This document shows positions 40,417 through 64,000 of a stretch of 64,000 nt of DNA, in pieces. The notes beneath the pieces are model-generated. The model searched no databases. It worked only from the letters and a program-made list of their open reading frames with translations, and had not been told where the DNA came from. Both the position numbers and the translations under genes were made by a program. The DNA is from Pseudobdellovibrio exovorus JSS (GTDB taxonomy: Bacteria > Bdellovibrionota > Bdellovibrionia > Bdellovibrionales > Bdellovibrionaceae), in NCBI RefSeq assembly GCF_000348725.1, contig NC_020813.1, positions 1,116,001-1,180,000 on the forward strand, written 5' to 3'. The first letter of the stretch is position 1; every line of letters begins with the position of its first letter.

Positions 40417-40453
40417 CTTCAAACACTCCATCCCAAATCACTTTGTACAACAA

Positions 40454-41191
40454 ATGGATACGAACACTTCAATGAACAAAACATGGGGGATTGTCGGTTT
40501 AGGCTGGTTAGGTTCTGAACTCGCAACCAAATTGAAAAAGTTGGGGGATAACAGTTGGGGAACTCGTTCCAACGTATTTAATTTTCAGACCGATCAATTT
40601 CCTGAAACTTTCTGCGATGTCTTGTTTTTAAATACTCCGCCACTTCCTCAGATGTCGCCAGAAGTTTATGTTCAGAAAATTTACAAAGCGGCGCGTGCGA
40701 AAATTATATTTATCAGCTCAACATCTGTTTATGGAGCTAGTGAAGGACTAATAACTGAATCCTCAATGGTGGCGCCGCAGACGGAATCCGCCCGCTGGCT
40801 AGTGGATGTCGAACTCCTACTGAGGCAAAAATTTAACGAAGATCTGACCATCGTTCGAGCTGGTGGCTTAATTGGTGGCGAGCGCCATCCGGTATTTCAT
40901 CTGAGCCGTAAAAAAGAGGTTACGACAGGGAAACATTTGGTGAACCTGATCCATCGCTCTGATTTGATCGGCATTTGTTTGTCTGCAAGCAAAGCGAGTA
41001 ATATTCCTCTGGTAAATGCCGTTGCTCCATTTCATCCGAAAAAAGAAGAGTACTACAATCAATGGGCGACTCAATTGAACGTTCCAAAACCGATCTATAC
41101 AGGCGGAACCGAGTCAAATCGTCAGATTGATTCCGAAATTCTACCTCTGCTTTATCCTCATTGGATATGTCCTAAGTTGGACTTCCTTTAG
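40454..41191 (+). CDS. NAD(P)-dependent nucleotide-sugar-epimerase-like (extended SDR, YeeZ-type)
   Basis: About 245 aa from ATG 40454 (ATG 40472 also possible). The longer frame would run through tRNA-Leu and is rejected. Rossmann motif WGIVGLGWLGSELATKL, FISSTSVYGASEG (active-site Ser/Tyr region), VRAGGLIGGERHP and LVNLIHRSDLIGICL. The family comprises NAD-dependent epimerase/dehydratase-like proteins without an assigned substrate (E. coli YeeZ relatives). Confidence 0.78.
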   Translation: MDTNTSMNKTWGIVGLGWLGSELATKLKKLGDNSWGTRSNVFNFQTDQFPETFCDVLFLNTPPLPQMSPEVYVQKIYKAARAKIIFISSTSVYGASEGLITESSMVAPQTESARWLVDVELLLRQKFNEDLTIVRAGGLIGGERHPVFHLSRKKEVTTGKHLVNLIHRSDLIGICLSASKASNIPLVNAVAPFHPKKEEYYNQWATQLNVPKPIYTGGTESNRQIDSEILPLLYPHWICPKLDFL

Positions 41192-41262
41192 TGAATAAGC
41201 TCCGTTCTTATTTGCCTCTTTCTAAATTTTTCCTTTTTAGATAAAATATTGAAGGAGGCTGT

Positions 41263-41541
41263 ATGGACATCATCAATAATAAAGCCGAACAAAAATTTTC
41301 TACATCTACGATAGGTGGCGAAGCCTTTATCAGCTATCGTCGCGGCTCTCAAAATTCCTATGATCTTCACTTTGTTTTTGTGCCACCGGAAGCGCGGGGG
41401 CAAAATATAGCTGATCAACTGGTGCGCAAAGCTTTGCAGCAGGCGAAAGATGAAAAGGTCAAAGTCATTGCCACATGCTCCTATGTATCCACATGGTTTA
41501 CACGTCATCCCGAAGAATCTGAAATGCTTCTACAATCGTAA
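41263..41541 (+). CDS. Small GNAT-type N-acetyltransferase-like protein
   Basis: 92 aa, GGAGG 8 nt upstream. Contains the single GNAT core with the acetyl-CoA loop VPPEARGQNIADQLVRKAL, then VIATCSYVSTWFTRHPE. Matches the short YidJ/NATD1-type proteins. Substrate unknown. Confidence 0.82.
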   Translation: MDIINNKAEQKFSTSTIGGEAFISYRRGSQNSYDLHFVFVPPEARGQNIADQLVRKALQQAKDEKVKVIATCSYVSTWFTRHPEESEMLLQS

Positions 41542-41566
41542 AAAGCTAAGCCTTAGTCGAGATAAA

Positions 41567-41595
41567 CAGGATCTTTTGCTCTTAAAGAGGTCCTG
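41567..41595 (+). terminator. Hairpin downstream of the small GNAT gene
   Basis: 11-bp stem with two G-U pairs (CAGGATCTTTT region with AAAGAGGTCCTG region) and a 7-nt loop, 25 nt after the stop. No U-run follows, so it may be a terminator or another RNA structure. Confidence 0.4.
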
Positions 41596-41679
41596 CGTGA
41601 ATTGAAATTATTATGAGTTTCAAAACGGCGTGGAAGCATTTAAAATAGAAGCTACTTAGTTTTAAAAAAGGAAATCCTT

Positions 41680-42429
41680 ATGTCTATTAATTCTATGGAA
41701 GATTTAGAAAATTTGAAGAAGATCGGTTCTATCGTGGCTCGCTGTTTGGATCATATGTCTAAAAAGCTAGAGCCGGGGATGACCACTTACGAGTTAGATG
41801 AAATCGGACGAGTTTTCCTTGAATTTCATGGGGCCAAGTCAGCGCCTAAGTTGGTTTATAATTTCCCCGGAATTACGTGCATCAGTGTTAATCATGAAGC
41901 CGCCCATGGTATTCCCAGTAAGTCAAAAAAACTAAAAGCAGGGGACTTAGTGAATATCGATGTTTCAGCGGAATTGAATGGATATTTTGCTGACACAGGA
42001 GGATCGTTTATTATCCCTCCGATCACGGCGATCAAAAAAAAGGTCTGTGATGTGGCGATGTCTACCATGTGGAAGGGAATTGCGGCGGCAGTTCACGGCC
42101 AAAATTTAAATGAAATTGGCAGAGCTATGGAAAATGAAGCTCGAAAAAATAATTTAACAGTGATTCGCAATTTATGCAGTCATGGTGTTGGCCGCTGGCT
42201 TCATGAAGAGCCAGATCAAATTCCTGGATATTACGACAGAAAAGATCGTCGCGTTTTAGAAGAGGGCATGGTGATTACAGTTGAGCCATTTGTGTCCACG
42301 GGGGCTCATAATGTTGTCGATAGTGGGGATGGTTGGACACTGATCAATCCCCATCATTTTACTGCTCAATATGAACATACAATTGTCATAACAAAAGATA
42401 AACCGCTGATTATGACATTGCCAGCATAG
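41680..42429 (+). CDS. map: Methionine aminopeptidase, type I
   Basis: 249 aa, AAAGGAAA upstream of the ATG. Removes initiator Met. Metal ligands: Asp in NIDVSAELNGYFADTGGSF (two Asp), His in CSHGVGRWLHEEP, Glu in TVEPF and QYEHTI. HGIP (EAAHGIPSKS) carries the substrate His. Complete and canonical. Confidence 0.95.
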   Translation: MSINSMEDLENLKKIGSIVARCLDHMSKKLEPGMTTYELDEIGRVFLEFHGAKSAPKLVYNFPGITCISVNHEAAHGIPSKSKKLKAGDLVNIDVSAELNGYFADTGGSFIIPPITAIKKKVCDVAMSTMWKGIAAAVHGQNLNEIGRAMENEARKNNLTVIRNLCSHGVGRWLHEEPDQIPGYYDRKDRRVLEEGMVITVEPFVSTGAHNVVDSGDGWTLINPHHFTAQYEHTIVITKDKPLIMTLPA

Positions 42430-42488
42430 AGCAGAACCAGCACAGAGAAAAAATAGAAAAAAATCGATTGAAAGTATAGACCCACATT

Positions 42489-43184
42489 ATGAATAAACCC
42501 ACCACTCCTCCAGATTTTTTTACCAAAGAGTTGTCGTTAGCTTATGACGAGCGTAACAGCAAGTTGTCGCCTATTTCGGAGAATTTACATTTCCTCATTC
42601 GTCTGGCGATCCAAGATCTGCCGACTAAATCCCATATTTTGTGTATCGGTGTGGGTACAGGTGCAGAAATTCTATCGTTAGCGAAGGCATTTCCGGAATG
42701 GACTTTTTTGGGAGTCGATCCATCAGCTTCGATGTTAGAAGTCTGCGCGGAACGTCTGCAAATTGCCGGTGTATCCGAACGCTGCCAGTTGGTGTGTGGA
42801 TATGTGCAAGACGTTCCAAAAGGTGAAAAGTTTGATGCTGTCCTGAGCGTTTTAGTGGCTCATTTTGTGAGGCGTGAAGAAAGACTCGATTTTTTTCAGA
42901 ATATGGTCAGTCGACTGAAGTCAGGCGGGTATTTAGTTAATGCTGAAATCAGTTGTGACCTTAATGCTCCAGAGTTTCCATTGATGTTAAAAGGATGGGA
43001 ACAAGTGCAAACTTTAATGGGAGCAACACCTGAATCCTTAGCGGGACTACCTCAGCAGTTGCGCACTGTTTTAAATATTTTGCCAAACAGCGAAACCGAA
43101 GACATTCTTCGTCAAAGTGGCATCCTATCGCCCACTAAGTTTTTTCAATCGTTTATGATCAGTGCGTGGTACGGTAAGAAATAG
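42489..43184 (+). CDS. Class I SAM-dependent methyltransferase
   Basis: 231 aa. Motif I HILCIGVGTGAEILSLAKAF, acidic loop LGVDPSASML, motif III-like KFDAVLSVLVAHFVRREERLDFF and GGYLVNAEISC. Methyl acceptor unknown. Lies between map and the dehalogenase-like gene on the same strand with gaps of 30-60 nt; may be co-transcribed. Confidence 0.85.
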   Translation: MNKPTTPPDFFTKELSLAYDERNSKLSPISENLHFLIRLAIQDLPTKSHILCIGVGTGAEILSLAKAFPEWTFLGVDPSASMLEVCAERLQIAGVSERCQLVCGYVQDVPKGEKFDAVLSVLVAHFVRREERLDFFQNMVSRLKSGGYLVNAEISCDLNAPEFPLMLKGWEQVQTLMGATPESLAGLPQQLRTVLNILPNSETEDILRQSGILSPTKFFQSFMISAWYGKK

Positions 43185-43214
43185 GCTTGTACTTATAAGT
43201 AAAGAGGGGTTCGT

Positions 43215-43958
43215 ATGAAGTTTTTAATGGTAGTTTTCTTGGCGCTGTTTGGATCTTCTTATGTGGAAGCTAAAAATGATATCAAAGTCATAGCGTTTGA
43301 TGCCTTTCCTGTTTTTGATCCAAGGCCAATTTTCAAAACGGTTCAAGAATTGTTCCCAGAAAAAGCAGATAAGCTGGTAGAGGTCTGGCAGGCGAAGCAG
43401 TTTTCGTATACGTGGTTAAGAACTTCTGGTGAGCAGTATAAAGACTTTTATCAAGTGACAGAAGATGCCTTAGTTTACGCAGCCAAAAATGTGAAGGTAG
43501 ATCTGACAGAAAAGCAAAAGCAACAAATTATGGGCGAATATCTGAAGTTGAAGCCTTGGCCAGATGCGATGGACGCTTTGCAAAAATTGAAAGATAAAAA
43601 ATATAAGATTACGTTTTTATCAAACTTTACTGAAGAGATGTTGAAGTCCAATCTAAAGTCTTCAAAGCTGGAAAAACTTTTTAGTCCACTATTATTAAGT
43701 ACAGATTTGGCTAAGGCTTTTAAGCCATCTCCGAAGGCCTATAATCTGGCCATCGAACATTTTGGTGTGAAAAAGAAAGAGGTGCTATTTGTAGCTTTCG
43801 CCCCTTGGGATGCTGCAGGAGCAAAATGGTTCGGTTATCCCACATTTTGGGTGAATCGTTCAAGCTTTCCTCCGGAAGAGTTAGGAGCCGAAGTCGACGG
43901 CATGGGTAAAAACTTGGAGGACCTCGTTCGTTATATGGAAACAACCTCTGAAAAGTAA
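43215..43958 (+). CDS. Secreted haloacid-dehalogenase type II-like protein with altered active site
   Basis: 247 aa with signal peptide (KFLMVVFLALFGSSYVEA) and GAGGGG Shine-Dalgarno. HAD fold: nucleophile region FDAFPVFD, motif II TFLSNFTEEM (Ser/Asn), Lys in FKPSPKAY, and FVAFAPWDAAGAKWFGYPTFWVNR. In L-2-haloacid dehalogenases the nucleophile Asp is followed by Y-G-T and the last motif is S-S-N-x-x-D. Here the Thr is replaced and the Ser/Asn pair is lost, while both Asp and the Lys remain. It probably does another hydrolase reaction in the periplasm. Confidence 0.75.
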   Translation: MKFLMVVFLALFGSSYVEAKNDIKVIAFDAFPVFDPRPIFKTVQELFPEKADKLVEVWQAKQFSYTWLRTSGEQYKDFYQVTEDALVYAAKNVKVDLTEKQKQQIMGEYLKLKPWPDAMDALQKLKDKKYKITFLSNFTEEMLKSNLKSSKLEKLFSPLLLSTDLAKAFKPSPKAYNLAIEHFGVKKKEVLFVAFAPWDAAGAKWFGYPTFWVNRSSFPPEELGAEVDGMGKNLEDLVRYMETTSEK

Positions 43959-43975
43959 CTTTTATCAGACTGGTT

Positions 43976-44875
43976 CTATTTTTTATAACGGGTGTACTTC
44001 TTCGCCCACTTCCTCGTATTAGGTAAAATTGAAAATAATAAGGGTAAAAGTATAAAGCGCGGCACGAATCGTCGTACATAATAAAAAAACATCGCGTCTA
44101 AAGTGGCTGGGATCCAAAGCGGTGGATTCTTTCTTTTCATAACTTTCAAAATTCGGAGAGCGACATCTTGGGGCGACGTTAGGCTCAGTTTCATCAGTCT
44201 TTCTATAAAAGGGGTCATATTTTTATAGTAGTCTGCATAGAGAGCTTCGGTGTCGTCATTAGGTTCGGATTGTATAGAGTACTTCACTTTTAAAAAGGAC
44301 TGTGAATGAACAAAGCCCGGTTGTATAAGACTAACGTTGATGCCTAAGGGTTTGACTTCATACCAAAGAGCTTCGCTGAGTCCTTCAAAAGCGTATTTTG
44401 AAGCGCTATATGCTCCCATAGTTGGCATAGCTAACATGCCGCTGACTGATGAGACATTAATAATTTTTCCCCAGCCCATCTGGCGCATATGCGGAAGAAC
44501 GGATTTAATAAGACCAACAGGACCAAAATAGTTGGTTGCAAACTGGTGCTGCTCTTCAGAGGCGCTCATGTGCTCGACGACAGCGCGATAGCTGACTCCA
44601 GCGTTATTGATGAGGATATTAACGCCTCCCCAAAGTGTAACTATTTCTTTAATAAGCGAAGTGCGGTTTCCTTCCTCAATGACATCTAACAGCCGTATTA
44701 AAAAGCGATCACTTTCAATAAATTTAGTGTGGAGCATTTTTAATGAGGAGGCGCGAGCTGTAATGACAACTCTGTACTCAGTTCTTTTGTAGAGTTCTTC
44801 TGCTAGGGCTAATCCAATTCCGGAGCCGCAACCCGTAACAAGTACGACAGGTTTTTTAGATTGTTTATTATCCAA
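43976..44875 (-). CDS. Short-chain dehydrogenase/reductase
   Basis: 299 aa, TTG start. NAD(P) motif VLVTGCGSGIGLALAEEL, NNAG, active-site Ser (INVSSVSGM) and YSASKYAFEG (Tyr-Lys). The C-terminal tail carries a hydrophobic stretch (FFYYVRRFVPRFILLPLLFSIL), a possible membrane anchor. Substrate unknown, perhaps a lipid or retinol-like alcohol as in related SDRs. The 5' end overlaps the next small gene by 8 nt. Confidence 0.88.
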   Translation of the reverse strand: MDNKQSKKPVVLVTGCGSGIGLALAEELYKRTEYRVVITARASSLKMLHTKFIESDRFLIRLLDVIEEGNRTSLIKEIVTLWGGVNILINNAGVSYRAVVEHMSASEEQHQFATNYFGPVGLIKSVLPHMRQMGWGKIINVSSVSGMLAMPTMGAYSASKYAFEGLSEALWYEVKPLGINVSLIQPGFVHSQSFLKVKYSIQSEPNDDTEALYADYYKNMTPFIERLMKLSLTSPQDVALRILKVMKRKNPPLWIPATLDAMFFYYVRRFVPRFILLPLLFSILPNTRKWAKKYTRYKK

Positions 44876-45095
44876 GGGATTTCTTTCTTTTGATTTGTTC
44901 GATACCTAATTCAAGCGCTCTTAGAAAGACGGCATTTTTCTTGAGATTTACAAATTTGTATTCTGGTTGACTCTGCAGTTTATCAATCAGCTCTGTAAAA
45001 TTTTTGCTGAATGCAGCTTTATCTGCTTTGGTAACCCTGAAGCCTAAAAGGGGATAGTGTTTGTTAATATCATCGCTTTTTTTCTTAGATCTCAT
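44868..45095 (-). CDS. Small basic protein upstream of the SDR
   Basis: 75 aa, Lys-rich (MRSKKKSDDINKHYP; C-terminus IEQIKRKKSLG) with a predicted helical middle (FSKNFTELIDKLQSQ). The segment FRVTKADKAAFSKNF...LRALELGIEQI is reminiscent of ribbon-helix-helix-type regulators, but this is not certain. It is likely co-transcribed with the SDR (8-nt overlap). The upstream 283 nt are very AT-rich with no gene visible. Confidence 0.55.
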   Translation of the reverse strand: MRSKKKSDDINKHYPLLGFRVTKADKAAFSKNFTELIDKLQSQPEYKFVNLKKNAVFLRALELGIEQIKRKKSLG

Positions 45096-45341
45096 AGATC
45101 TGTGTAATATACATTATTTATTAAATAATTATAATATAATTATCAGATAATATATAATTGATCGTCTACATTGCTGCTCAAATCGTTGGTGGTGTATATG
45201 GTGTTAAAATGTAATTGTTTTTGGAATGGTGGCGGTTTATATCCTCTTCTTGAAAAGATATCCTTAGGTGATATTTGAAATCCATGATAGTGTGCCTATT
45301 AAGTTATAAAGCGACCTTCGAGACTTTGCGCATTCTGTTCA

Positions 45342-45376
45342 ATACCTCTTAATAGCACTCAGCCTTTAGGAGGTAT
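45342..45376 (+). promoter_or_regulatory. Leader hairpin hiding the Shine-Dalgarno of the first RRM gene
   Basis: ATACCTC (45342-45348) is a perfect complement of GAGGTAT (45370-45376), which contains the Shine-Dalgarno before ATG 45379. A 21-nt loop separates the arms. Pairing would block ribosome access. Confidence 0.5.
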
Positions 45377-45378
45377 AA

Positions 45379-45657
45379 ATGAGTAAAAAACTATACGTCG
45401 GTAATTTGCCGTATTCAGCAACGGATGAATCTTTAACAGAAAAATTTTCTGAGTGTGGCACTGTCAGCTCAGTAAAAGTTATCATCGATCGTAATTCAGG
45501 TCGCAGCAAGGGTTTTGGCTTTGTCGAGATGTCAAATGACTCTGAAGCAGATACCATTATCAGTCGTTTCAATGGGACGGATGTGGATGGTCGTGCTATC
45601 AATATATCAGAGGCTAAGCCAATGGTTCCCCGAAATGATTCGGGTCGTTCATACTAG
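45379..45657 (+). CDS. RNA-recognition-motif (RRM) protein
   Basis: 92 aa, single RRM like the bacterial Rbp proteins. RNP2 KLYVGNLPYS and RNP1 KGFGFVEM, both with the aromatic residues that stack on RNA. Short Arg-containing tail. Strong AGGAGG Shine-Dalgarno, but it can pair with an upstream complement. Bacterial RRM proteins are often cold-induced RNA chaperones. A sister gene lies about 0.8 kb downstream. An intrinsic terminator follows. Confidence 0.93.
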   Translation: MSKKLYVGNLPYSATDESLTEKFSECGTVSSVKVIIDRNSGRSKGFGFVEMSNDSEADTIISRFNGTDVDGRAINISEAKPMVPRNDSGRSY

Positions 45658-45686
45658 TTCTTTTATTTAATCTTAAGAATTATAAA

Positions 45687-45714
45687 AAACCGGCCTTTGT
45701 AGGTCGGTTTTTTT
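45687..45714 (+). terminator. Intrinsic terminator after the first RRM gene
   Basis: AAACCGGCC pairs with GGTCGGTTT (one G-U), loop of 6 nt, then a run of seven T including the stem end. Classic rho-independent terminator. Confidence 0.85.
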
Positions 45715-45730
45715 GTTAGATAGGTAGAAA

Positions 45731-46201
45731 ATGCAACCACAAATTATTTCATTTAACTGTCTTTTAAAAAATATTGCCGGAAAAGTTTTAAGTTCTACGT
45801 ATAATAGAGAAGTCTTAAACGTTGTTGATGATGAAAACGTCATGTTGCTAGGGCTAGCAAAAGGCCTACAAAATTTAACGAAAGGTGAAAAAAGAAGGAT
45901 TTCGTTATCTGCACAGGATGCCTATGGTTTCTATGACCCTAAAAAAGTTATCCTTTACCCAAGGAAGTATCTTCCGCAGGATATTCGAGTAGGCACATCC
46001 GTTACAATTGTGGGTAAAAGTGGGCGTTCAAGAATTTATAAAGTGATTGAGTTGTATCACCACATGGTGACCTTAGATGAAAATCATCCTTTAGCGGGAC
46101 AGGACTTAGTCTTTGAAATTGAGGCCTTATCAGTAAGGCCAGCTACACAGACCGAGATCAATGAGTCATACAATATGGTAGGGGTGCAAATTCTGCACTA
46201 G
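45731..46201 (+). CDS. SlyD-like FKBP peptidyl-prolyl isomerase
   Basis: 156 aa; AGGTAG upstream of ATG. SlyD-type FKBP: LGLAKGLQNLTKGEKRRISLSAQDAYGFYD, insert-in-flap region, then VTLDENHPLAGQDLVFEIEALSVR, the most conserved block. The His-rich C-terminus of E. coli SlyD is absent. Catalyses prolyl isomerisation or acts as chaperone. Confidence 0.88.
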   Translation: MQPQIISFNCLLKNIAGKVLSSTYNREVLNVVDDENVMLLGLAKGLQNLTKGEKRRISLSAQDAYGFYDPKKVILYPRKYLPQDIRVGTSVTIVGKSGRSRIYKVIELYHHMVTLDENHPLAGQDLVFEIEALSVRPATQTEINESYNMVGVQILH

Positions 46202-46424
46202 CGTGATTATCCTCTGTTGTATTTGGAACTCTATATAAACCATGTAAATTAAGTAGGGTTCATATAATTAAGAATAGCAGAACAATCTTAATGGGTTAGA
46301 GTTATTATACTGATGAAAGAGTCTTGATTTTAAAAAATAAAAAATTATTAATTTGGTAAGTGGGTCAGTTTCCTGTAAAGTGGCCTTTCCAACGGTTTCT
46401 TTCGATTAAATTGCGTAGGGCTCT

Positions 46425-46458
46425 TTCTTCTTTAGTACCATCATATCCTAAGGAGGAA
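46425..46458 (+). promoter_or_regulatory. Leader hairpin hiding the Shine-Dalgarno of the second RRM gene
   Basis: TTCTTCTTTAG (46425-46435) pairs over 11 bp, with two G-U pairs, with CTAAGGAGGAA (46448-46458), which contains the Shine-Dalgarno of ATG 46461. Loop of 12 nt. The remaining 46202-46424 holds no visible gene and is very AT-rich. Confidence 0.5.
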
Positions 46459-46460
46459 AT

Positions 46461-46763
46461 ATGAGTAAAAAATTATACATTGGAAATTTATCTTATAACG
46501 TAGACGAAGGCGCTTTAAACGCGTTGTTCTCTCAATACGGAGCAGTTGAGTCTGTTCGTATCATCACTGACCGCGACACAGGTCGTAGCAAAGGTTTTGC
46601 ATTCGTTGAAATGACAGAAGAAGCAGATGGCTTAAAAGCTATCGAAAACTTGAATGGCACTCAACAGTTCGAACGTTCAATGAACGTAAGTGTTGCTAAA
46701 CCTATGGAATCACGTGGTGGTTCTAGAGGCGGTGGCGGCGGTTTTTCTAGAAATCGTTACTAG
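46461..46763 (+). CDS. RNA-recognition-motif protein with Gly-rich tail
   Basis: 100 aa. RNP2 KLYIGNLSYN, RNP1 KGFAFVEM; tail SRGGSRGGGGGFSRNRY typical of glycine-rich RNA-binding (Rbp/GRP) proteins. AAGGAGG 6 nt upstream. A close paralogue of the 45.4-kb RRM protein, suggesting duplication with an FKBP gene between. IF-1 paralogue gene follows 14 nt later. Confidence 0.93.
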   Translation: MSKKLYIGNLSYNVDEGALNALFSQYGAVESVRIITDRDTGRSKGFAFVEMTEEADGLKAIENLNGTQQFERSMNVSVAKPMESRGGSRGGGGGFSRNRY

Positions 46764-46777
46764 GTTTAAAGCTCGTC

Positions 46778-47020
46778 ATGGCTAAAGAAGACCTAGTTAC
46801 CTTTACAGGTAAGGTACGTGACTTGTCCGGGGGTGGTGTTTATCACATCACCCTTGATAACGGAGTTGCTGTATCTGCGCGCCTGTGCGGGAAAATGAAA
46901 AAATTCAATATTAAAGTTGTCGTAGGCGACATGGTCGATGTGGGACTTTCCCCGTATGATCCATCACATGGCCTGATTACTCATCGTCATAAAAATCATA
47001 GACCATCATCGGTCAATTAG
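46778..47020 (+). CDS. infA: Translation initiation factor IF-1 paralogue
   Basis: 80 aa, OB-fold S1-type protein: starts MAKEDLVTFTGKVRDL, VSARLCGKMKKFNIKVVVGDMVDVGLSPYD..GLITHRHK. IF-1 is normally 72 aa; this is longer, with a divergent central strand (GGGVYHITLDNGVAV) and a C-terminal NHRPSSVN extension. It may be a second IF-1 acting under stress next to the RRM protein gene, or the only IF-1 of the cell; the rest of the genome would decide. Confidence 0.85.
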   Translation: MAKEDLVTFTGKVRDLSGGGVYHITLDNGVAVSARLCGKMKKFNIKVVVGDMVDVGLSPYDPSHGLITHRHKNHRPSSVN

Positions 47021-47035
47021 TTCAGTCAGCGGAAT

Positions 47036-47464
47036 TTATTTTTTACTATATTGTCTTAAATACATTTCATTTTTAATGGATAAGCTATTTCCGATACGTT
47101 CGGAAATGAGCTTCCAAAGATGGCTTTGCTGTAAGGTGAGGCGATCGTCTAAAGTCTGATGAAAGAGGCCGAGCCATCTTTCTAATAAATTGTGATTAAA
47201 TCCAGCGAAAAAATGCTTTGTCACAGGGTTATACTCTGTCGATAGGTAAGGGTGTCCACCAAAGCGGATCCACCAGAAGTGGGTGAGTCGCTCTATATGT
47301 TCAGGCCAGTCGTGCACAGAACGAAAAGAAACTGACAGGATAGAGTCCTGCTGTATGCGATTATAAAAATCATCAATAACATTATAAATATCCTGATGAC
47401 GGAATGTAACGCCATTGACTGCAACTGTATTCAGTTCTGGTTCTAAAGGGCTTTTTTTATTCAT
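47036..47464 (-). CDS. Truncated haemoglobin, group III
   Basis: 142 aa. The 2/2 globin pattern: VIDDFYNRIQQDSILSVSFRSV, WPEHIERLTHFWWIRFGGHPYLS, then the heme-side segment NPVTKHFFAGFNHNLLERWLGLFHQTL, which carries the proximal His. Group III trHbs are linked to NO or peroxynitrite handling under microaerobic conditions. Divergent from nnrS across 167 nt with a large palindrome; strongly suggests joint NO control. Confidence 0.8.
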   Translation of the reverse strand: MNKKSPLEPELNTVAVNGVTFRHQDIYNVIDDFYNRIQQDSILSVSFRSVHDWPEHIERLTHFWWIRFGGHPYLSTEYNPVTKHFFAGFNHNLLERWLGLFHQTLDDRLTLQQSHLWKLISERIGNSLSIKNEMYLRQYSKK

Positions 47465-47505
47465 AGGAACAACTGACCTTGTTATTTATCGTCTCGTTTA
47501 TTAAG

Positions 47506-47552
47506 AGTCGACTTTATATGTTGTATGTAATATACAATATATAAAGTCGACT
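47506..47552. promoter_or_regulatory. 47-nt near-perfect palindrome, candidate NsrR operator
   Basis: Outer arms of 14 nt match perfectly (AGTCGACTTTATAT, 47506-47519; ATATAAAGTCGACT, 47539-47552). The inner 19 nt pair too, apart from G-T at 520/538 and 527/531 (last three digits), around centre 47529. Divergent gene starts lie 41 nt and 79 nt away. NsrR is encoded nearby, so it is the best candidate regulator; a hairpin is the other reading. Confidence 0.6.
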
Positions 47553-47631
47553 GTCAATTTGGACGGGCGGTATAAAAGATAAAGTAAATGCAGAATAAAT
47601 ACAGAACAGCAAAAACGAGATGGATTAAGAT

Positions 47632-48753
47632 ATGAAAACTCTAGCTCCTTATCAGATATTTTTTCCTATTGGTATCTTGTGTGCCTTATTAGCGGTCGGT
47701 GTTTGGTTTACCCAGAACTTGGGGTGGTTTGACACTCCGGTGATGTGGGTTCACGGAAAGCTAATCGCAGGTGGGTTTTTGTGGAGTTTTATAGTTGGAT
47801 TTTTGATGACGGCCGTGCCGCGCATGACGGGAACATTTAATGCGCACAAGGTAGAATACGCCATTTCATTTTTATTGATATTGGCACTGATTGTTTTTTC
47901 ATGGGCCCTAGATGCCAAACCTTTTTATTTTATAAGTTTTGCTCTGACAGTATTCATTATGATTTATGCAGGGCGAAGATTGGTTGTGAGTACAAGGCCA
48001 GTGCCTGTGTTTTTCTCTCATGTGGGTTTGGCGATGTTCATGTCTTTAGTTGGCTCTTATTTTTATTATAGAGGGCAATCTATTTTAGGATTTTATTTTT
48101 ATCATGTTGGAACTATTTTGTTATTAGTTTTAGGAATAGGCACACGATTCTTTGCGTTTTTATCAGGCCTTCCCTCTGTATTTGAAGGTACGGAAGAAAA
48201 ATGGAAGAAAGCTGCTTTTCATATGATGGGATTGGCAATTGTGGTCTTGCTAAGCGTTGTGGGTATGAGGCTATCATGGGGATTTTTAGGATTAGCTTTA
48301 CTCACATTGGGTTATCTATTTTGTATATGGCAAGTGCAGCGCTCTTCGAGTCGTCCTTCAGCGTTGAAATGGGCGGTTAGAATTGTGGCTGTGATGATAC
48401 CACTCAGCTTTATTTTAAGCTGGATTTATCCCGTTTATTATCTTTCTTGGATGCACATACTTTTTGTGGGATGCTTCGGTTTAATTACTTTCTCTGTCGC
48501 TACGCGTGTGACATTGGCGCACGGGGCCTATCCAACGGATATGGAGTTAAAATCGAAAGCGTTGGGATGGATGGTGGCTTTTATCGTTCTGGCGATGGTA
48601 TCCAGAGTGTTTTATGGCTTTTCATCTGGATTATGGAAAACAAGTTTTCTGCATTTGGCGGGCACATTTTGGTTTTTAGCTGTTGGCGTTTGGTGTTATT
48701 CTTACTTTAAAAAAATCTTCAAACTGGGCCCTCAATCTAAACCGAGTTGTTAA
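47632..48753 (+). CDS. nnrS: NnrS-family heme-copper membrane protein
   Basis: 373 aa with about 12 TM segments. N-terminal APYQIFFPIGILCALLAVGVW and GGFLWSFIVGFLMTAVPRMTGT are family signatures, with conserved His (VHGKL; FFSHVGLAM; FYFYHVGTIL; MHILFVGCFGLITFSVATRV). NnrS proteins protect against nitrosative stress and iron-thiol damage. Downstream NsrR is translationally close (10 nt). Confidence 0.92.
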   Translation: MKTLAPYQIFFPIGILCALLAVGVWFTQNLGWFDTPVMWVHGKLIAGGFLWSFIVGFLMTAVPRMTGTFNAHKVEYAISFLLILALIVFSWALDAKPFYFISFALTVFIMIYAGRRLVVSTRPVPVFFSHVGLAMFMSLVGSYFYYRGQSILGFYFYHVGTILLLVLGIGTRFFAFLSGLPSVFEGTEEKWKKAAFHMMGLAIVVLLSVVGMRLSWGFLGLALLTLGYLFCIWQVQRSSSRPSALKWAVRIVAVMIPLSFILSWIYPVYYLSWMHILFVGCFGLITFSVATRVTLAHGAYPTDMELKSKALGWMVAFIVLAMVSRVFYGFSSGLWKTSFLHLAGTFWFLAVGVWCYSYFKKIFKLGPQSKPSC

Positions 48754-48763
48754 AGGGATATTC

Positions 48764-49162
48764 ATGCGATTAACGGATCATACAGATTACTCTTTGCGCG
48801 TGTTGATGTATCTGAATCAGAAAAAAAGCCTTATTACTTTAAATGAGTTGGCTGAGAAATTAGGTATTTCTAAAAATAACTTGATCAAAGTCTCTAATCA
48901 GTTAGCTAAAGCGGGATGGATTGACACATCCAGAGGACGCACAGGCGGTCTTGTTATTAAAGCGGAAACGGGAAGCATGAGTCTAAAAGAAATTGTGCTG
49001 AAAACGGAAGAGACATTTAATATGGCTGAATGTTTTTCTAATAAGAAGTGCCATTGTACATTTTTGCGTAACTGCCTCTTGAAAAAAAGTCTAAACGAAG
49101 CCCTGTCGGCTTTTCTTGAGGCGTTATCAGAGAAAACTTTGAACGATGTGACTGTAAGATAA
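48764..49162 (+). CDS. nsrR: Rrf2-family nitric-oxide-sensing repressor NsrR
   Basis: 132 aa from ATG 48764 (AAAGGGAT upstream); an open frame further 5' is inside nnrS. Winged-helix N-terminus MRLTDHTDYSLRVLMYL and LAEKLGISKNNLIKVSNQLAKAGW, then TGGLV. The cluster-binding Cys are in AECFSNKKCHCTFLRNC, as in NsrR, which loses DNA binding when NO attacks the Fe-S cluster. Likely controls nnrS and the globin. Confidence 0.92.
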   Translation: MRLTDHTDYSLRVLMYLNQKKSLITLNELAEKLGISKNNLIKVSNQLAKAGWIDTSRGRTGGLVIKAETGSMSLKEIVLKTEETFNMAECFSNKKCHCTFLRNCLLKKSLNEALSAFLEALSEKTLNDVTVR

Positions 49163-49202
49163 AACACTTTTGGATTTTGTTGTTTCAACGTACAATAAGA
49201 GC

Positions 49203-49616
49203 ATGAAATACACCTTGAAAAACGAATTGCCTGCACCTGAGGAATACTGCCATTTACGTCAAATCACAGGTTTATCACCGAAGACGATTGCAGCCGCACA
49301 GGTTTCATTACCACGTTCCTTACATGCCGTTACTTTACGAAATGGCGATCAGTTGATAGCGATGGGACGGGTCATAGGCGATTTAGGGTGTCATGTGCAA
49401 ATTGTCGATATTGCGGTTCACCCTGATTATCAAGGGCTGAAGTTGTCTCGAGTTATCATGGAAAACATTATGGATTTCGTAACAAAAGAGTGCCACCGCT
49501 GTGCGTTCGTCAACTTGTTTGCTGATGTGGATTATTTGTATCAGAAATTTGGGTTCGTAGATTCTGTTAAATCTAAAGGCATGTACTTAGATTGGAATCG
49601 GGTTTCTCAATCTTGA
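49203..49616 (+). CDS. GNAT-family N-acetyltransferase
   Basis: 137 aa from ATG 49203. GNAT motif A: VQIVDIAVHPDYQGLKLSRVIMENIMDFV; then YLYQKFGFV. Substrate unknown. Directly follows nsrR, 40 nt. Confidence 0.8.
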   Translation: MKYTLKNELPAPEEYCHLRQITGLSPKTIAAAQVSLPRSLHAVTLRNGDQLIAMGRVIGDLGCHVQIVDIAVHPDYQGLKLSRVIMENIMDFVTKECHRCAFVNLFADVDYLYQKFGFVDSVKSKGMYLDWNRVSQS

Positions 49617-49638
49617 GAGCTCGCCATTAAAAATAAAG

Positions 49639-50310
49639 TCACGACAAAATATCTTCATAAAAAGCTCCGCGCTGTGACTGCGGGTGAATAATGTGAATTT
49701 CTAGCACCCAAAGATTTTCTGTGGGGCAGATATTCATAGATGAAAGTCCTTCTTTGGAAAATAGAGCGTGGGGGAAGTCTCCTAAGCGGTGCCCCGCCAT
49801 TTTCGGATTTAATTGACAGTGATGTTCTTCGGCACAGGTGCTGGCGAATTGATAGAGTTCTTGTCCACTGAGTTGTTCTGTCTTCCATTTTGTAGCGACA
49901 TCTTTCCAGATCTGTTCGCAAGAGCCGATGATCGGCTGATGCGGATTGTGTGCTGTGTTTGAGTCTGAAGATGAAAAACTAAATGTACGTCCAAAGTCGG
50001 CTTCGTGATCTTCAAAAATAGGTCCGACATCTATAAAAAATATGTCGCCGTCATTTAAGGTTAAACTCGTGTCGGCCAAATCGCGAAAACTTTTGGTTGT
50101 ATCACTTCCGATTCTGAATTTTGTGGGATGCCAGAATTTAGAAACTCCCACTTTTTTAAACTCTTCTTTCACTAAAGCTTGTCCATCCAGCTCGTTCATT
50201 CCAGCAGAGGAAAGGGAGGCGATTCTATGAGTGACTTCGTGGCAAACCCTGCGGGCCTCCAGATAGGTAGCTAAATTAAACTTGTCTCCGGTTTTTTCTG
50301 TAGGGTGCAT
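49639..50310 (-). CDS. M24-family (Xaa-Pro/Met aminopeptidase fold) metallopeptidase
   Basis: About 223 aa from ATG 50310, chosen to follow the porin stop at 50315; the longer frame overlaps the porin. Pita-bread fold ligands: FFIDVGP (Asp), EADFGRTF (Asp), MAGHRLGDFPH (His) and WVLEIHI (Glu). Related to Xaa-Pro aminopeptidases but the ligand set is partly atypical (GHRLGDFPH). Substrate unknown. Confidence 0.8.
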   Translation of the reverse strand: MHPTEKTGDKFNLATYLEARRVCHEVTHRIASLSSAGMNELDGQALVKEEFKKVGVSKFWHPTKFRIGSDTTKSFRDLADTSLTLNDGDIFFIDVGPIFEDHEADFGRTFSFSSSDSNTAHNPHQPIIGSCEQIWKDVATKWKTEQLSGQELYQFASTCAEEHHCQLNPKMAGHRLGDFPHALFSKEGLSSMNICPTENLWVLEIHIIHPQSQRGAFYEDILS

Positions 50311-50314
50311 ATAA

Positions 50315-51487
50315 TTAAAATGAAAAGTTAAAGTCCAGCATCGTGCGCTGATAATCAGGTGAAAAAACAGGGGATGAAATGGCTTCTTTTCCATTAAAGT
50401 AGGTCAAAGCCACATTGGCATTGCGACCTACTTGATAGGCCAGAGATGTTTTCCAACTACGAATATCGGTACCGCCTCCAGCAGAGTCAGAATCTGTAAG
50501 AAGACCTACCACAGCATCCTTTTCGACCTGACGGTAATCTAAAGTCACAGCCCATGATGAAACGTCTTTTAGCTCGCCAAACTGAATACCATAAATCTGC
50601 GCTGTATTGTAATCGTCATCGCGCGAGTTTTTTACATATTCTGCAAAGAAAGAAATGGGTTGTCCGGCAACTTCTGAAAATAACTCGAGTCCCAAAGAGC
50701 TGAGTTCGTAATTGTGAACGTAATTCCCACCGCCATCCACTGTATTTCCTTTTGCGGCTGGGGCTTTGTCGCCTTTGATGTTTGCAAAGTTCAGATAGCT
50801 GCCCACAGCACGTATGCCGAAATCAGCACCTTTAAACGCATAACCCAGTTGCAGAGCTAATAATCCCACATCTGTATTTTCTGCGGAGCCATCGGCAGAA
50901 TATCTTTCATTCAGCCATGTCGCTGAGGCCACAGCCATTAAATCATGCGCAAGGTCTACAGTTTGATTGTACTTAACCGATAGACCTTCCGGAGTGACAT
51001 CGTTATCAAAAATCAAATCATTGTCTGCGACGAATTCAAAAGGGAGTGGTGTCTTACCACCCAGAATGCGGATGTTTTCTGTGGCTTTCCAGTTAAAGTA
51101 AGCCAAATCTAATACGATACTTTTTTTAGAATAATATCCTGAAAGATCTTGGTTGGTGGTGTTGGGTTCATTTCCCAAAGCAGAATCCGTAGAAAGACGA
51201 ACGCCCACTTCTGTCTGCGAGTTGACTTCAGCCGAGCCACCGATGCGAAGTCGCATGCGCTGACGTAGAAGATCTGAATCTTTTAGGGGAGCTAATTGTT
51301 GCTCTTGTATTTTTTCTGTACGGAAGCGGAAGTCTCCGTAAAACTTTCCATTAAACGGAACGGGGATTTGTAAGTAGTTCGGTTTGTTTTCCTCGGGTTC
51401 GATAGACTCTTGTGCCTGCGCTAAAGAAGTCATGGATAAAGAACAGATCAGAAGTAAAGGGCGTAACAAAGATACGGAATTTTTCAT
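50315..51487 (-). CDS. Putative outer-membrane porin
   Basis: 390 aa. Signal peptide (SLLRPLLLICSLSMTSLAQA), then amphipathic beta-strands with frequent Arg/Tyr (GKFYGDFRFRTEKIQEQQ, LRQRMRLRIGGSAEVNSQTEVGVRLSTD, LGGKTPLPFEF) and C-terminal LDFNFSF ending in Phe. Resembles the 'putative porin' family of proteobacteria. AAAGGACTTTT upstream of the ATG. The M24 gene follows without a gap. Confidence 0.82.
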   Translation of the reverse strand: MKNSVSLLRPLLLICSLSMTSLAQAQESIEPEENKPNYLQIPVPFNGKFYGDFRFRTEKIQEQQLAPLKDSDLLRQRMRLRIGGSAEVNSQTEVGVRLSTDSALGNEPNTTNQDLSGYYSKKSIVLDLAYFNWKATENIRILGGKTPLPFEFVADNDLIFDNDVTPEGLSVKYNQTVDLAHDLMAVASATWLNERYSADGSAENTDVGLLALQLGYAFKGADFGIRAVGSYLNFANIKGDKAPAAKGNTVDGGGNYVHNYELSSLGLELFSEVAGQPISFFAEYVKNSRDDDYNTAQIYGIQFGELKDVSSWAVTLDYRQVEKDAVVGLLTDSDSAGGGTDIRSWKTSLAYQVGRNANVALTYFNGKEAISSPVFSPDYQRTMLDFNFSF

Positions 51488-51706
51488 AAAAGTCCTTTGG
51501 GTTACTTTGGCGCAGAGAGTCCTTATTCAATTGAATTTCAACTTTAGAGGACTTTTATAAAACGAGGCAATTAAAGAGGTAATATGGCATCCAACGAAGG
51601 TCTAGGAGTGAAGGACGCAAATCTAATTTCTTAGAGGTGTAACATAATTCTTGTTAATATAGGGTATTCTGTTTAGAAGCCTGAAAGCGAAGGAAGTCGG
51701 AGCCAA

Positions 51707-53446
51707 ATGATGGGTTATAAAAACCTTGTAAGACGTTTTTTCATTTTTGGTATTTTATTTCTTTTTGCGCTTCAGTCTTGCACGACTCTTCCCCATAAAT
51801 CAGCCGCGACGGAATCGTCTTTAACTGAATCTTCGCCCTCAGCTGTTCGTCAAACGGCGCAGGCCAGTGATAGCATCACGTTGACCGATATGTTTCGTCG
51901 TGTACGTGAAGTGATCGCTCCGAAAGAGGGCGGCAAATTAGTTCATAAAAAAGTAGCGGAAAGTGAACTGATCAGTATTTTTCAAAGCAATCCCCGCAGA
52001 GTAAATGAAACAGACGCTGCCTTAATCAGTGCGCTAGAGTCTGAAGCGCAACAGCGTGATATCACAAAGCACGTTCGACTGATTCCACCAAAAGGGCAAT
52101 GGGGTTATTCCGAGCTGAAGTACTATGTGAATCATCCGTACTATAAAAATGGTAAACTTCAGCGCGCTGGGAATATTCTAAAAGTATGGCGTGACTTTAT
52201 TCAAAAGACTGAAAAAAGTTTGGTTTTGAATGTCTATGATTTTGATCTCGAAGATGTAGCACAAGATCTCGTACAATTAGCTCGTCGTGGAGTAAAAGTG
52301 CGTGTCGGAATCGACCGCAATGTCATTACACATCGTCCGGAAGTGCAAAAAGTAGCCTCTATTTTAGAAGCTGGTGGTGTGGCTTTAGTGCGTGTTAATC
52401 CTGTGGCATTAAATCATCAAAAGGTAGCGGCGCGAGATTGGGAAAGTTTTGATAAAGCAGCTGTATTATTTTCTTCAGGAAATCTAACGCAAAGTTGCTT
52501 GGGGCCAGAGGGAGATTTAAAAAACGTCCGTCCACGCCCGCGCGAATCTATTCCAAATGCCAATCATGTGTTGACGATGAAGAGTTACATCTTATCGAAT
52601 CTAGTCGCCCATGAGTTGGCAAAAACTCTAGGACCTGAGCTTTATCTACGTGGGGCGCAATACCCACTGACAGGGGCGTATCAAGTCACAGGCCCAGGAG
52701 TTAATCCACAAACTCTGGAAGCTTATCCTGAAAAAAGTGTGATCATCACATTCACTCCAGGTGGTGGCTATCGTGCGATCAATAAAAACATACTAGGTCA
52801 CATGATCAGTATGACCAGCGGTCCTGTGCGCATGGTACAGTTTGCCTATTCGTCAGAGCTAGTAGCGGAAGCTTTATTGCAAAGAGCGCAGCGTGAGTTT
52901 CAAGAAAACTCCAAGTTTGATTTTTACTCTGTAGGTGACACACCATTCGCTATGCAGGGGTGGAGTCAGTTTTTAAAAATGTCAGGGCTTAAACGTGAGC
53001 AGACAGAAGTGGGTCGCGCCCGTTTCTATGAAGACTCTGAGTCTATCTGGTCGAAAAACCTAAGTGCATCGCAATTAGAGCAGGTTCGTCGCCGCGTGCG
53101 TGTGGCGCCAGAGCTTTACGGGAATCGCCGCGTTCGTGTAGCGGGGCAAAGTTATTTGGTCTCTTCCAAAATACATCACAAATTGATGAGTACGGGTGAT
53201 TTTGCAGTGGTGGGGACATCGTTTAATTTCAGTAAAGGTGCTGAAACGAATAACGAACAGATCTTGGTTTTCCGTGATCCTAATATGGTAGATATGGTGA
53301 ACGGAGTGGCCAGATACTTTGTGGAAACCAGTGCGCGTTCGGTTATGGAAGAAGCTCAAAGAAGAAATGCAGGTTTAGGCTCTACAGATGAAGAGCTGAA
53401 TCTGATTGAAGATGCATTCGATCCTGAAGTGGAATTGTCTGATTAG
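51707..53446 (+). CDS. Phospholipase-D-family lipoprotein
   Basis: 579 aa. Lipobox LQSC (Cys about 25). Two HKD-type active sites: NHQKVAARDWESFDKAAVLFSSGN and IHHKLMSTGDFAVVGTSFNFSK, the His/Lys/Asp of each half. ESIPNANHVLTMKSYI lies between. Like cardiolipin synthases or secreted phospholipases/nucleases; located outside the cytoplasm, it could attack lipids or nucleic acids. It overlaps the convergent FbpC gene by 4 nt (TTAG: stop codons on both strands). Confidence 0.85.
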   Translation: MMGYKNLVRRFFIFGILFLFALQSCTTLPHKSAATESSLTESSPSAVRQTAQASDSITLTDMFRRVREVIAPKEGGKLVHKKVAESELISIFQSNPRRVNETDAALISALESEAQQRDITKHVRLIPPKGQWGYSELKYYVNHPYYKNGKLQRAGNILKVWRDFIQKTEKSLVLNVYDFDLEDVAQDLVQLARRGVKVRVGIDRNVITHRPEVQKVASILEAGGVALVRVNPVALNHQKVAARDWESFDKAAVLFSSGNLTQSCLGPEGDLKNVRPRPRESIPNANHVLTMKSYILSNLVAHELAKTLGPELYLRGAQYPLTGAYQVTGPGVNPQTLEAYPEKSVIITFTPGGGYRAINKNILGHMISMTSGPVRMVQFAYSSELVAEALLQRAQREFQENSKFDFYSVGDTPFAMQGWSQFLKMSGLKREQTEVGRARFYEDSESIWSKNLSASQLEQVRRRVRVAPELYGNRRVRVAGQSYLVSSKIHHKLMSTGDFAVVGTSFNFSKGAETNNEQILVFRDPNMVDMVNGVARYFVETSARSVMEEAQRRNAGLGSTDEELNLIEDAFDPEVELSD

Positions 53447-61066: not shown

Positions 61067-64000
61067 ATGGGTTTATTTTTCAAGAAGAACTTGTCATTTT
61101 TTTTGGCTTCGGGTTTCTCTTTAGGTCTTCTTATATCCTTTCAAAACTGCAGTAACAAAATGAATTTCGCGACTCCCAATGTGAGTGAGTTTTCCTCTAT
61201 GGCTGTGGGTGAAAGTTTTTGTGAAGAGAACCCAATGGACCCTACCTGTATTGGGCGTGATAAAACTGTATTTAATAAAGCCTGTTACTTTAATGGCGTG
61301 ATGGTTGAAGATGGTGAGTGGGTTGAAGGCTATCGCCAATCGTCAGTTCCCTATGGTCACAGTTGTGAAAGTGAACGTCGTCAATGTAAAGATGGGGCGT
61401 GGACTGGATCTTACAACTTCGCGAGTTGCTCTGTTGGCGAAGCGGCCAGTTGTCTTTTTAATGGTCAAACAATTGCGCATGGCCAAGGTGTCAGTGCTTA
61501 CCAAAATTCCTCTGTTGGATTTGGCAGTGACTGTGTGACTGAAAATCGTGTTTGTAATAATGGTGTTTTGTCAGGTTCTTATAACTACGCTAGCTGTTTA
61601 GTTGGTGCGGCGTCCAGCTGTCTTTTCAATGGCCAAACTGTACCTCATGGTGGAACTGTAACGGCATTTCAAAACTCGTCTGTAGCTTATGGTGCAAGTT
61701 GTGTTTCGCAAACTCGTACGTGTTACAATGGAGCCTTGTCCGGCACTTACAATCAACCCAGTTGTAATGTTGGCGCAGCGGCGAGTTGTCAATTTAACGG
61801 ACGCGCGGTTGCCCATGGTGAATCTGTCGTGGCCTTTCAGCAGTCGTCTGTAGCTTATGGTGCTTCTTGTACGTCACAAACTCGTACTTGTAATAATGGG
61901 GCTTTATCAGGTTCTTATGGATATGCTTCCTGTACTCCGGGCGCGGCTGCTAGTTGTCTTTTCAATGGTCAAACTGTCGCACATAACGAAACCATCGTAG
62001 CTTTTCAAAACTCAACAGTGGCGTATGGTTCTAGCTGTCAGCCTCAATCCCGTCAGTGTAACAACGGAACGTTAAGTGGTAGCTACACGTTCTCAAGTTG
62101 TCAGGCCAGTCAGCCTAATTCGTGTCAGTTCAATGGTCAGACCATTGCTCACGGGCAGATCGTAACGGCATTCCAAAACTCAACAGTGGCATTCGGATCT
62201 ACGTGTGTATCTGAACAGAGAGCTTGTAATAACGGATCATTATCTGGTTCGTACAATGTGGCTTCATGTCAGGTAGGTGCAGCAGCGAGTTGTCAATTTA
62301 ACGGTCAAACGGTGGCCCACGGAGCAAGCGTAACAGCTTTCCAAAATTCAACGGTGGCTTATGGTGGAACGTGTGTTTCACATCAGAGAACATGTTCCAA
62401 TGGAGTTTTATCTGGAAACTATAACTACGGGACATGTGAGGTTGGCGCGGCGGCAAGCTGTCTTTTCAATGGCCAGACCATTGCTCACGGACAACGAGTA
62501 ACGGCTTTCCAAAGTGCAAACGTGGCCTATGGAGCTACTTGTAACTCGCAAGAGCGTGTTTGTACGAATGGAAGTCTTTCTGGTAATTACACAGCGGGTA
62601 GTTGTACAGTCAATCAGCCGAACTCATGTACTTTCAATGGTCAGACAATTGCTCACAATCAAAATGTAACGGCATTCTTGGCGTCGAGTGTGGCTTACGG
62701 ATCGACGTGTACGTCTCAGGCGCGTACTTGTAACAACGGAACTTTAAGTGGCCAATACACATTTGGTTCATGTGTGGTGGGTGCGCCGAGATCATGTACT
62801 TTTAATGGTCAAACCGTGACTCATAATCAAAAAATTATTGCGTATCAAAGTGCAAGCGTAGCTTATGGTTCTACATGTACATCGCAAGAGCGTACTTGTA
62901 GTGATGGAACATTATCCGGTAATTACACTCACGCCAGTTGCGTGGTGAATGTGGCTGCGTCTTGTAGTTTTAATGGTCAGACAGTGGCTCACGGTGCGAG
63001 CGTTACGGGCTATGCAACATCATCAGTACCTTATGGTTCAACATGTTCGGCGCAAACGCGCACATGTAATAACGGAACTTTAAGTGGTACGTCTGCTTAC
63101 AGCTCGTGCTCTGTGACTCCTGCAGCGTCTTGTACTTTCAATGGGCGCGCAGTGGCCCACGGAGCCAGTGTTACAGGATACACGACATCGTCAGTACCTT
63201 ATGGTTCGACATGTTCAGCGCAAACACGTACATGCAGCAATGGGACTTTAAGTGGTTCAGCGGCTTACAGTTCATGTGTTGTGAATCCTGCGGCTACTTG
63301 TAGTTTTAACGGACAATCTATTGCTCACGGTGGAACGGTTACAGCCTATGCGGCAGCTAGCGTTCCATTTGGTTCAAGTTGTTCAGCGCAAACGCGTACT
63401 TGTAGTAATGGAACTTTAAGTGGAACAAACGCGCATGCTTCATGTTCTGTGGCTCCGGCTGCATCTTGTAGCTTTAATGGCCAGTCTATCGCCCATGGTG
63501 GATCAGTGACGGCTTACGCTTCAGGCAGTGTGCCTTATGGTTCAAGTTGTTCAGCGCAAACACGTACATGTAATAATGGATCTTTGAGTGGAAATTACGG
63601 AGCCGCTAGTTGTTCTGTAAGTCCTCCAGCTTCTTGTAACTTTAATGGTCAAGCAGTAGCTCATGGTGCAAGCGTGACAGCCTATGCTGCGGCCACAGTG
63701 GCTTATGGTGGAAGCTGTACTTCTGAAAGCCGTACTTGTAATAATGGCTCGTTAAACGGAAGTTATGGACATAGCAGCTGTACGGTCAGTGGTCCGCCAG
63801 AAGGCTCTTGTGAAATTCGTCATCCGATCGGATGGTGGGGTGAGCAAACACGCAATGGAACTATGCACTGTGCGGAGTTCTACTCGCCAGCAGCTAATCC
63901 ACGCATCACAACGACTATTATGATGAATGGTCAAACTGTAACAACGCGTGCAGGATACTGTGGTAGTGGAAATGGCGCTTGTCATGGAGAGATGACATAT
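61067..64000 (+). CDS. Large Cys-rich repeat lipoprotein, open at the window end
   Basis: An open frame of 978 codons with no stop, running off the window. ATG 61067 with GACAGGGGAA upstream. The N-terminus has two Lys, a hydrophobic run (FFLASGFSLGLLISFQNC) and a Cys at the expected lipidation place, a non-canonical lipobox. After residue 72, fifteen units of exactly 56 aa run to residue 912. Each unit is built on C-x-FNG-Q-x-x-AHG, then C at 28, C at 35 and C at 49, with RTC.NG.LSG.Y and ..C. The tail has a WWGEQTRNG segment and more Cys. It is likely a surface or secreted adhesin-like protein stabilised by disulphides. Confidence 0.88.
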   Translation, partial: MGLFFKKNLSFFLASGFSLGLLISFQNCSNKMNFATPNVSEFSSMAVGESFCEENPMDPTCIGRDKTVFNKACYFNGVMVEDGEWVEGYRQSSVPYGHSCESERRQCKDGAWTGSYNFASCSVGEAASCLFNGQTIAHGQGVSAYQNSSVGFGSDCVTENRVCNNGVLSGSYNYASCLVGAASSCLFNGQTVPHGGTVTAFQNSSVAYGASCVSQTRTCYNGALSGTYNQPSCNVGAAASCQFNGRAVAHGESVVAFQQSSVAYGASCTSQTRTCNNGALSGSYGYASCTPGAAASCLFNGQTVAHNETIVAFQNSTVAYGSSCQPQSRQCNNGTLSGSYTFSSCQASQPNSCQFNGQTIAHGQIVTAFQNSTVAFGSTCVSEQRACNNGSLSGSYNVASCQVGAAASCQFNGQTVAHGASVTAFQNSTVAYGGTCVSHQRTCSNGVLSGNYNYGTCEVGAAASCLFNGQTIAHGQRVTAFQSANVAYGATCNSQERVCTNGSLSGNYTAGSCTVNQPNSCTFNGQTIAHNQNVTAFLASSVAYGSTCTSQARTCNNGTLSGQYTFGSCVVGAPRSCTFNGQTVTHNQKIIAYQSASVAYGSTCTSQERTCSDGTLSGNYTHASCVVNVAASCSFNGQTVAHGASVTGYATSSVPYGSTCSAQTRTCNNGTLSGTSAYSSCSVTPAASCTFNGRAVAHGASVTGYTTSSVPYGSTCSAQTRTCSNGTLSGSAAYSSCVVNPAATCSFNGQSIAHGGTVTAYAAASVPFGSSCSAQTRTCSNGTLSGTNAHASCSVAPAASCSFNGQSIAHGGSVTAYASGSVPYGSSCSAQTRTCNNGSLSGNYGAASCSVSPPASCNFNGQAVAHGASVTAYAAATVAYGGSCTSESRTCNNGSLNGSYGHSSCTVSGPPEGSCEIRHPIGWWGEQTRNGTMHCAEFYSPAANPRITTTIMMNGQTVTTRAGYCGSGNGACHGEMTY
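61283..63802 (+). repeat. 15 tandem in-frame units of exactly 168 bp
   Basis: The Cys codon that opens each unit recurs at 61283 + 168n (61451, 61619, 61787, 61955, 62123, 62291, 62459, 62627, 62795, 62963, 63131, 63299, 63467 and 63635), with no indels. Units differ mainly by substitutions; late units (62963-63634) are closer to each other than early ones. The pattern breaks at the next Cys (63809). Confidence 0.92.

Follow-up and report, generated by a model that had tools for sequence, protein, structure and literature searches.

The window, the whole 64,000-nucleotide stretch of DNA analysed here, covers positions 1116001-1180000 of the single chromosome (2,657,893 bases) of Pseudobdellovibrio exovorus JSS. 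At its far end lies a gene, referred to below as the array gene, which starts with an ATG at 61067 on the plus strand. An earlier note on this DNA had described the frame as open from 61067 through the window end; read from the assembly, the frame continues to a stop at window-equivalent position 64063. This stop lies 63 bases past the window edge and follows a real, non-repeat C-terminal domain. The product has 998 aa, which makes it a large protein rather than the very large one previously announced. The features are as follows.

61067..64000 within the window, stop at 64063, plus strand: whole coding sequence, from the frame and the assembly sequence
61067..61147, plus strand: N-terminal signal sequence, residues 1-27 (MGLFFKKNLSFFLASGFSLGLLISFQN), from the sequence; signal and anchor putative
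61148..61150, plus strand: Cys28 of FQNC, presumed lipidated, with Asn at -1, from the motif
61220..61249, plus strand: two-Cys element in a short linker, residues 52-61 (CEENPMDPTC; C52 and C61), from the sequence
61283..63802, plus strand: array of 15 units of 56 aa (168 bp), residues 73-912, from unit spacing and alignment
61283..61450, plus strand: unit 1, divergent and cap-type (Asp for His at 10, Trp for Leu at 40), from unit comparison
62963..63802, plus strand: units 11-15, youngest-looking block, from DNA identity, Tandem Repeats Finder and a shared motif
63803..64000, plus strand: C-terminal domain, residues 913-998 (913-978 in the window), presumed tip, from the sequence

Residues 1-27 form a putative export signal, both basic and hydrophobic in character, and the last three, FQN, precede Cys28. 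When FQNC is compared with the lipobox consensus [LVI][ASTVI][GAS]C, the Asn at -1 falls outside the consensus. A hydrophobic stretch followed by FQNC is also found in other P. exovorus loci (L085, L086, L087, L095 with two cases, and L099, besides the array gene itself, L093) and in the array proteins of L028, L037, L041, L042, L048 and L061. The DNA pattern for FQNC is present at 28 places in the P. exovorus genome, compared with 12 for the control, and 7 of the 28 occurrences follow a hydrophobic N-terminus; an excess over the control is seen in most of 61 family genomes. FQNC may be a lineage-specific lipoprotein signal, and an N-terminal lipid anchor of the array protein is probable. The anchor predicted earlier is plausible in this light, and the non-canonical motif keeps it short of certain. 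Counterparts to the element CEENPMDPTC, either as C..NP..P.C or as a short C-x(n)-C, follow the lipobox in L028, L061, L041 and L037.

The unit start CxFNG recurs at residues 73, 129 and so on to 857 (n=15), with all 14 spacings being exactly 56 aa (168 bp). Cys is present at unit positions 1, 28, 35 and 49 in 15/15 units, and 12 columns are invariant throughout (C1, F3, N4, G5, V22, G25, C28, R33, C35, G38, G42 and C49). The indel-free array of four-Cys units reported from the first reading of the sequence is therefore upheld for this gene, as is its description as a strict structural repeat. With 12 invariant columns and profile matches elsewhere down to E 1e-28, the pattern is far from chance.

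The copies of the unit are old, and selection keeps their sequence. Between units, protein identity averages 57% and DNA identity 58%, and the values for the three codon positions are 0.65, 0.69 and 0.41. The median dS is 1.8 where finite and undefined in 34 of 105 pairs, which is near saturation. Tandem Repeats Finder picks up no more than the final four to five units, owing to divergence of the DNA. Since the units are old and diverged with saturated dS, the fixed length of 56 aa represents constraint and not recent copying. Adjacent units resemble each other more than distant ones, matching the expectation for tandem growth. The motif CSAQTRTC is present in units 11-14, and units 11 and 12 form the most similar pair, at 77% DNA identity. 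The loop positions differ among the units of the gene. An expansion of repeats that was neutral or close to it, in a surface protein dispensable to the cell and with no role tied to predation, could account for copy numbers that range from 1 to 15 across genes and genomes, for arrays that are not syntenic and for a species-specific tail without relative. This explanation is highly improbable, however, as the median dN/dS of about 0.24 at saturated dS, which bears out the purifying selection suggested before, and 15 copies without frame break or length change both oppose it.

The geometry of the module was surveyed in 48 distinct ORFs containing 219 units and 167 neighbouring pairs. The gap between the first and second Cys is 26 in 186 units, between the second and third 6 in 193, and between the third and fourth 13 in 206 (each of 219). 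The linker between units has 7 aa in 148/167 pairs, and the period is 56 in 135/167, with indels in relatives giving periods of 52 to 71. A length of 56 aa thus characterises the family, although not without exceptions. All four Cys are retained in essentially all of 254 distinct units, in keeping with the two disulphides per unit proposed earlier, which are plausible. As Cys were not lost in pairs among these 254 units, joint losses cannot give the Cys pairing. A comparison of 23 arrays indicates that the opening unit is usually a variant, with E, N or D replacing His at position 10 and with F or W more often at position 40. Such variant first units would fit a capping role. Orthology of the first units was considered and rejected, their identity (0.475) being no closer than that of random picks (0.490); class-typical changes are what they share.

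The distribution of the module was examined with a profile of the 15 units against 369 Bdellovibrionota genomes. The module was found in 71 of them, including 13 of the 14 that share the genus of P. exovorus; it was also found, in fewer copies, in part of the genus to which several complete genomes of Bdellovibrio size belong. A scan of 84,980 species, with one genome each and a reach limited by its one strict peptide pattern, returned records mostly from Bdellovibrionota, plus Patescibacteria. In a sample of Patescibacteria, the phylum of one seed genome, one further genome with the module was found besides the seed, and its occurrence in that phylum is sporadic. Arrays of 3 to 7 units are present on two gammaproteobacterial plasmids (Allochromatium and Methylomagnum). 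Copies are found singly or in arrays of 2-15, also in bacteria not known as predators. The module is therefore clearly enriched in Bdellovibrionota and not restricted to them, contrary to the first expectation. Searches of viral contigs and phage records for the module gave no match, so the array is not a phage tail feature. On the Allochromatium tepidum plasmid pAt1 (L077), the frame runs from 3554 to 7015 on the plus strand and the deposited gene begins at 4649; three repeat units upstream of 4649, in the same frame, are missing from the annotation.

Another 15-unit array was detected by profile in Bdellovibrio sp. qaytius (CP025734.1, 3,348,710 bases), which belongs to the same genus and is, next to P. 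exovorus, the other epibiotic predator known. Both this bacterium (PMC11656739) and B. exovorus JSS, with its genome of 2.66 Mb (PMC7137782), are epibiotic predators. No conserved neighbourhood was found between the array gene and the qaytius array; the qaytius and L065 arrays have a flanking layout common to those two only. Because the array genes of P. exovorus and qaytius are not syntenic, this is not a conserved predation gene, and because the two bacteria form one clade, the 15-unit parallel counts as one observation.

Single or few copies of the module adjoin PG_binding_1, F5/8 type C, bacterial Ig, TIG, FN3, astacin and TSP1 domains, and further partners are GHL15-like, FGE-sulfatase and prepilin N_methyl domains. 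In P. exovorus, one module stands immediately ahead of the TSP1 repeats in each of three prepilin-like proteins. Such partners are what one would expect around a module with an accessory or adhesive role outside the cell. The C-terminal tails of array proteins differ between genes. The 86-aa C-terminal domain of the protein studied here has 6 Cys and is unlike the array units, and no relative of it was found in 368 other Bdellovibrionota genomes. Array proteins thus appear to combine a common stalk with a private tip.

The prepilin-like proteins of P. exovorus are encoded at chromosome positions 36000-52000 (L141), as paralogues at 4941-6722 (minus strand), 7566-9044 (plus) and 10427-12010 (minus) of that locus, with a broken fourth copy at 9205-9817 (plus). 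They share an N-terminal half and one module, followed by varying numbers of TSP1-like repeats and varying tails, in mixed orientation. This set resembles a family of pilus-tip adhesins in the course of diversification, in which copies may have recombined. The same locus contains two adjacent paralogous ORFs (1127-2266 and 2386-3582, both plus strand) that are asparagine-synthase-like by eye, and in both a hydrophobic stretch precedes a short tail rich in Cys at the end. In L061, a 715-aa protein with a DUF5648 domain (2798-4942, plus strand) is encoded directly upstream of an 11-unit array on the same strand and is possibly a partner of that array protein.

The company of single modules also bears on a different role for the array, in which each unit would bind a ligand, glycan or protein, the array would act through avidity and the tip would be merely a cap. 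Single copies are found with an astacin-type protease, with a GHL15-like glycosidase that has TIG domains and with PG_binding_1 proteins, in the manner of accessory binding modules, and two polar residues, E/Q31 (about 96%) and R33 (97%), are conserved over the 254 units. The top conservation, however, falls on residues expected for the fold (Cys, Gly, F3, V14, Y/F17 and L40), and the loops vary between units of one gene, so no common binding site is evident. Such a multivalent binder is somewhat unlikely.

The structure of the unit was predicted with AlphaFold2. Three units (66 aligned triples) gave a mean pLDDT of 96.3 and a pTM of 0.61, and a single unit (101 aligned units) gave 95.3 and 0.72, with strands as in the three-unit model. 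Since the single unit folds on its own in the prediction, a chain of separate beads is indicated, and not the regular solenoid anticipated in the earlier note. As the pTM for three units is only 0.61, the angle from bead to bead is uncertain. Searches of Pfam, NCBIfam, PHROGs and PDB sequences with the protein and its profiles gave no real match for the unit, consistent with the absence of a named domain foreseen earlier. Weak Pfam names turned up here and there (cystine-knot toxins, Salp15, K1-lyase_N and others); they were rejected as matches of Cys or composition over the many members scanned.

Foldseek returned no match at E below 0.001 among solved structures and none in the viral Foldseek library. 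Its top match for the single unit was 9oz6_A (probability 0.95, rmsd 1.8 A over 41/41 residues, TM 0.69 by target length, 24% identity), at an E of 0.33 that is not significant alone. This chain is the VWC2 domain of chicken NEL; the first map of its complex resolves the NEL VWC2 domain only (PMC13044245). Other matches were a second NEL chain (rmsd 2.0) and the VWC domain of CCN3 (rmsd 2.5). The unit profile was additionally compared with seven VWC stretches from PDB sequences and scored 22.7, whereas 60 controls with shuffled non-Cys columns reached at most 13.1 and the reversed profile 10.6. A small profile of the Methylomagnum units alone scored 12.7 against VWC and did not reproduce the match.

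Compared to the VWC domains of NEL/NELL (VWC2), CCN3 and collagen IIA, the unit has in common the start C-x-x-N/D-G-x-x-hydrophobic-x-x-G, a Cys-x-N/D-G motif after its third Cys, a small beta sheet and its size. It differs in having four Cys instead of ten, in being bacterial and in exact tandem arrays, and in having neither CxxCxC nor CCxxC (0/15 units) nor the second subdomain. VWC (PF00093) did not appear in the Pfam search of the array protein at E up to 10, nor among the 25 Pfam families for the 66 triple-unit members or the 22 for the 101 single units. From the model and the profile comparison, we read the unit as probably having a fold like VWC subdomain 1, placed outside the VWC family proper because the VWC motifs and the second subdomain are absent. 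On the pattern of FnI and VWC modules, the disulphides of the unit would pair 1-35 and 28-49.

FnI and sushi/CCP modules are likewise four-Cys extracellular beads of about 45-60 aa in tandem, and beta2-glycoprotein I, factor H and FnI were among the weak Foldseek matches; their Cys spacing is unlike that of the array unit. Fibronectin type I was rejected, as FnI_RECK and Fn1_2 scored weakly, below the cut-off, and the gap between the second and third Cys is 6 and not C-x-C. Sushi/CCP (PF00084) and TSP1 (PF00090) were rejected as well. For sushi/CCP there was no Pfam match, and the rmsd of 5-6 A to beta2-glycoprotein I reflects a poor alignment. TSP1 adjoins the unit in other P. exovorus proteins and is not within it, its score of 12.6 lying in the control range.

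In overall plan, the array protein resembles bacterial stalk or "periscope" proteins, in which an anchor, a repeated stalk of Ig-like, Rib or G5-E repeats and a terminal domain follow each other. The difference is that its stalk would consist of disulphide-locked 56-aa beads and not of Ig-size domains. A periscope protein in the strict sense, with near-identical repeats, was rejected: DNA identity between the array units averages 58% and is 77% at most, so they are too diverged for rapid length variation. Bd0875 of Bdellovibrio, a MIDAS adhesin with a lipobox, is also a predator lipoprotein thought to be active at the prey interface (PMC11003981). It has a VWA/MIDAS fold without repeats, and the array protein has no such domain.

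Taken together, we give about an even chance to the array protein being a surface-anchored rod of VWC-like modules that bears a tip specific to the species and that the epibiotic predator probably uses to contact its prey. The protein would be exported and then probably lipidated at Cys28. Each 56-aa unit would fold alone as a small beta module with two disulphides, and the fixed 7-residue linker would give a constant step between modules and thereby a stiff rod of 15 beads, with the 86-aa Cys-rich domain displayed as its tip. At a guess from module size, the rod would be some tens of nanometres long. Extending beyond the envelope, it would attach to prey or to a surface, and the binders would be the modules, the tip or both. 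The architecture of the array is well supported, whereas adhesive function, surface exposure, lipidation, disulphide pairing, rod stiffness and prey binding are inferred; the strongest pointers to an adhesin are the orphan tip and the domain company of the module. Since the bacterium is an epibiotic predator, the most economical role to propose is contact with prey, which also agrees with the parallel in qaytius.

A disulphide-rich spacer inside the envelope, running along it or bridging it, would suit the many Gram-negative lipoproteins that end in the periplasm by default, and no surface signal was identified in the array protein. Fifteen rigid upright beads would nevertheless exceed the width of the periplasm, as estimated from module size, and both the orphan tip and the occurrence of the module in secreted enzymes suggest an outward location, making a periplasmic structural protein improbable.

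In the literature searched, no description of an adhesin of Pseudobdellovibrio was found, and none of the module family or the array gene, most subscription journals being outside the coverage. The module family, absent from Pfam and NCBIfam, could be given a name and help to annotate stalk and tip proteins, in Bdellovibrionota as well as outside them. Should the VWC-like fold be confirmed, a class of modules so far counted as animal would have a bacterial counterpart in exact tandem rods. An unlikely extension of this reading is that the unit represents, in a minimal form found in bacteria, the VWC/FnI superfamily of animal adhesion modules and the array a prey-gripping stalk whose unique tip decides the target; if true, one module family would link predator stalks, prepilin tips and cell-surface proteins of Patescibacteria. 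As a surface-anchored rod, the array protein would be a concrete, testable candidate for how epibiotic predators hold prey without entering.
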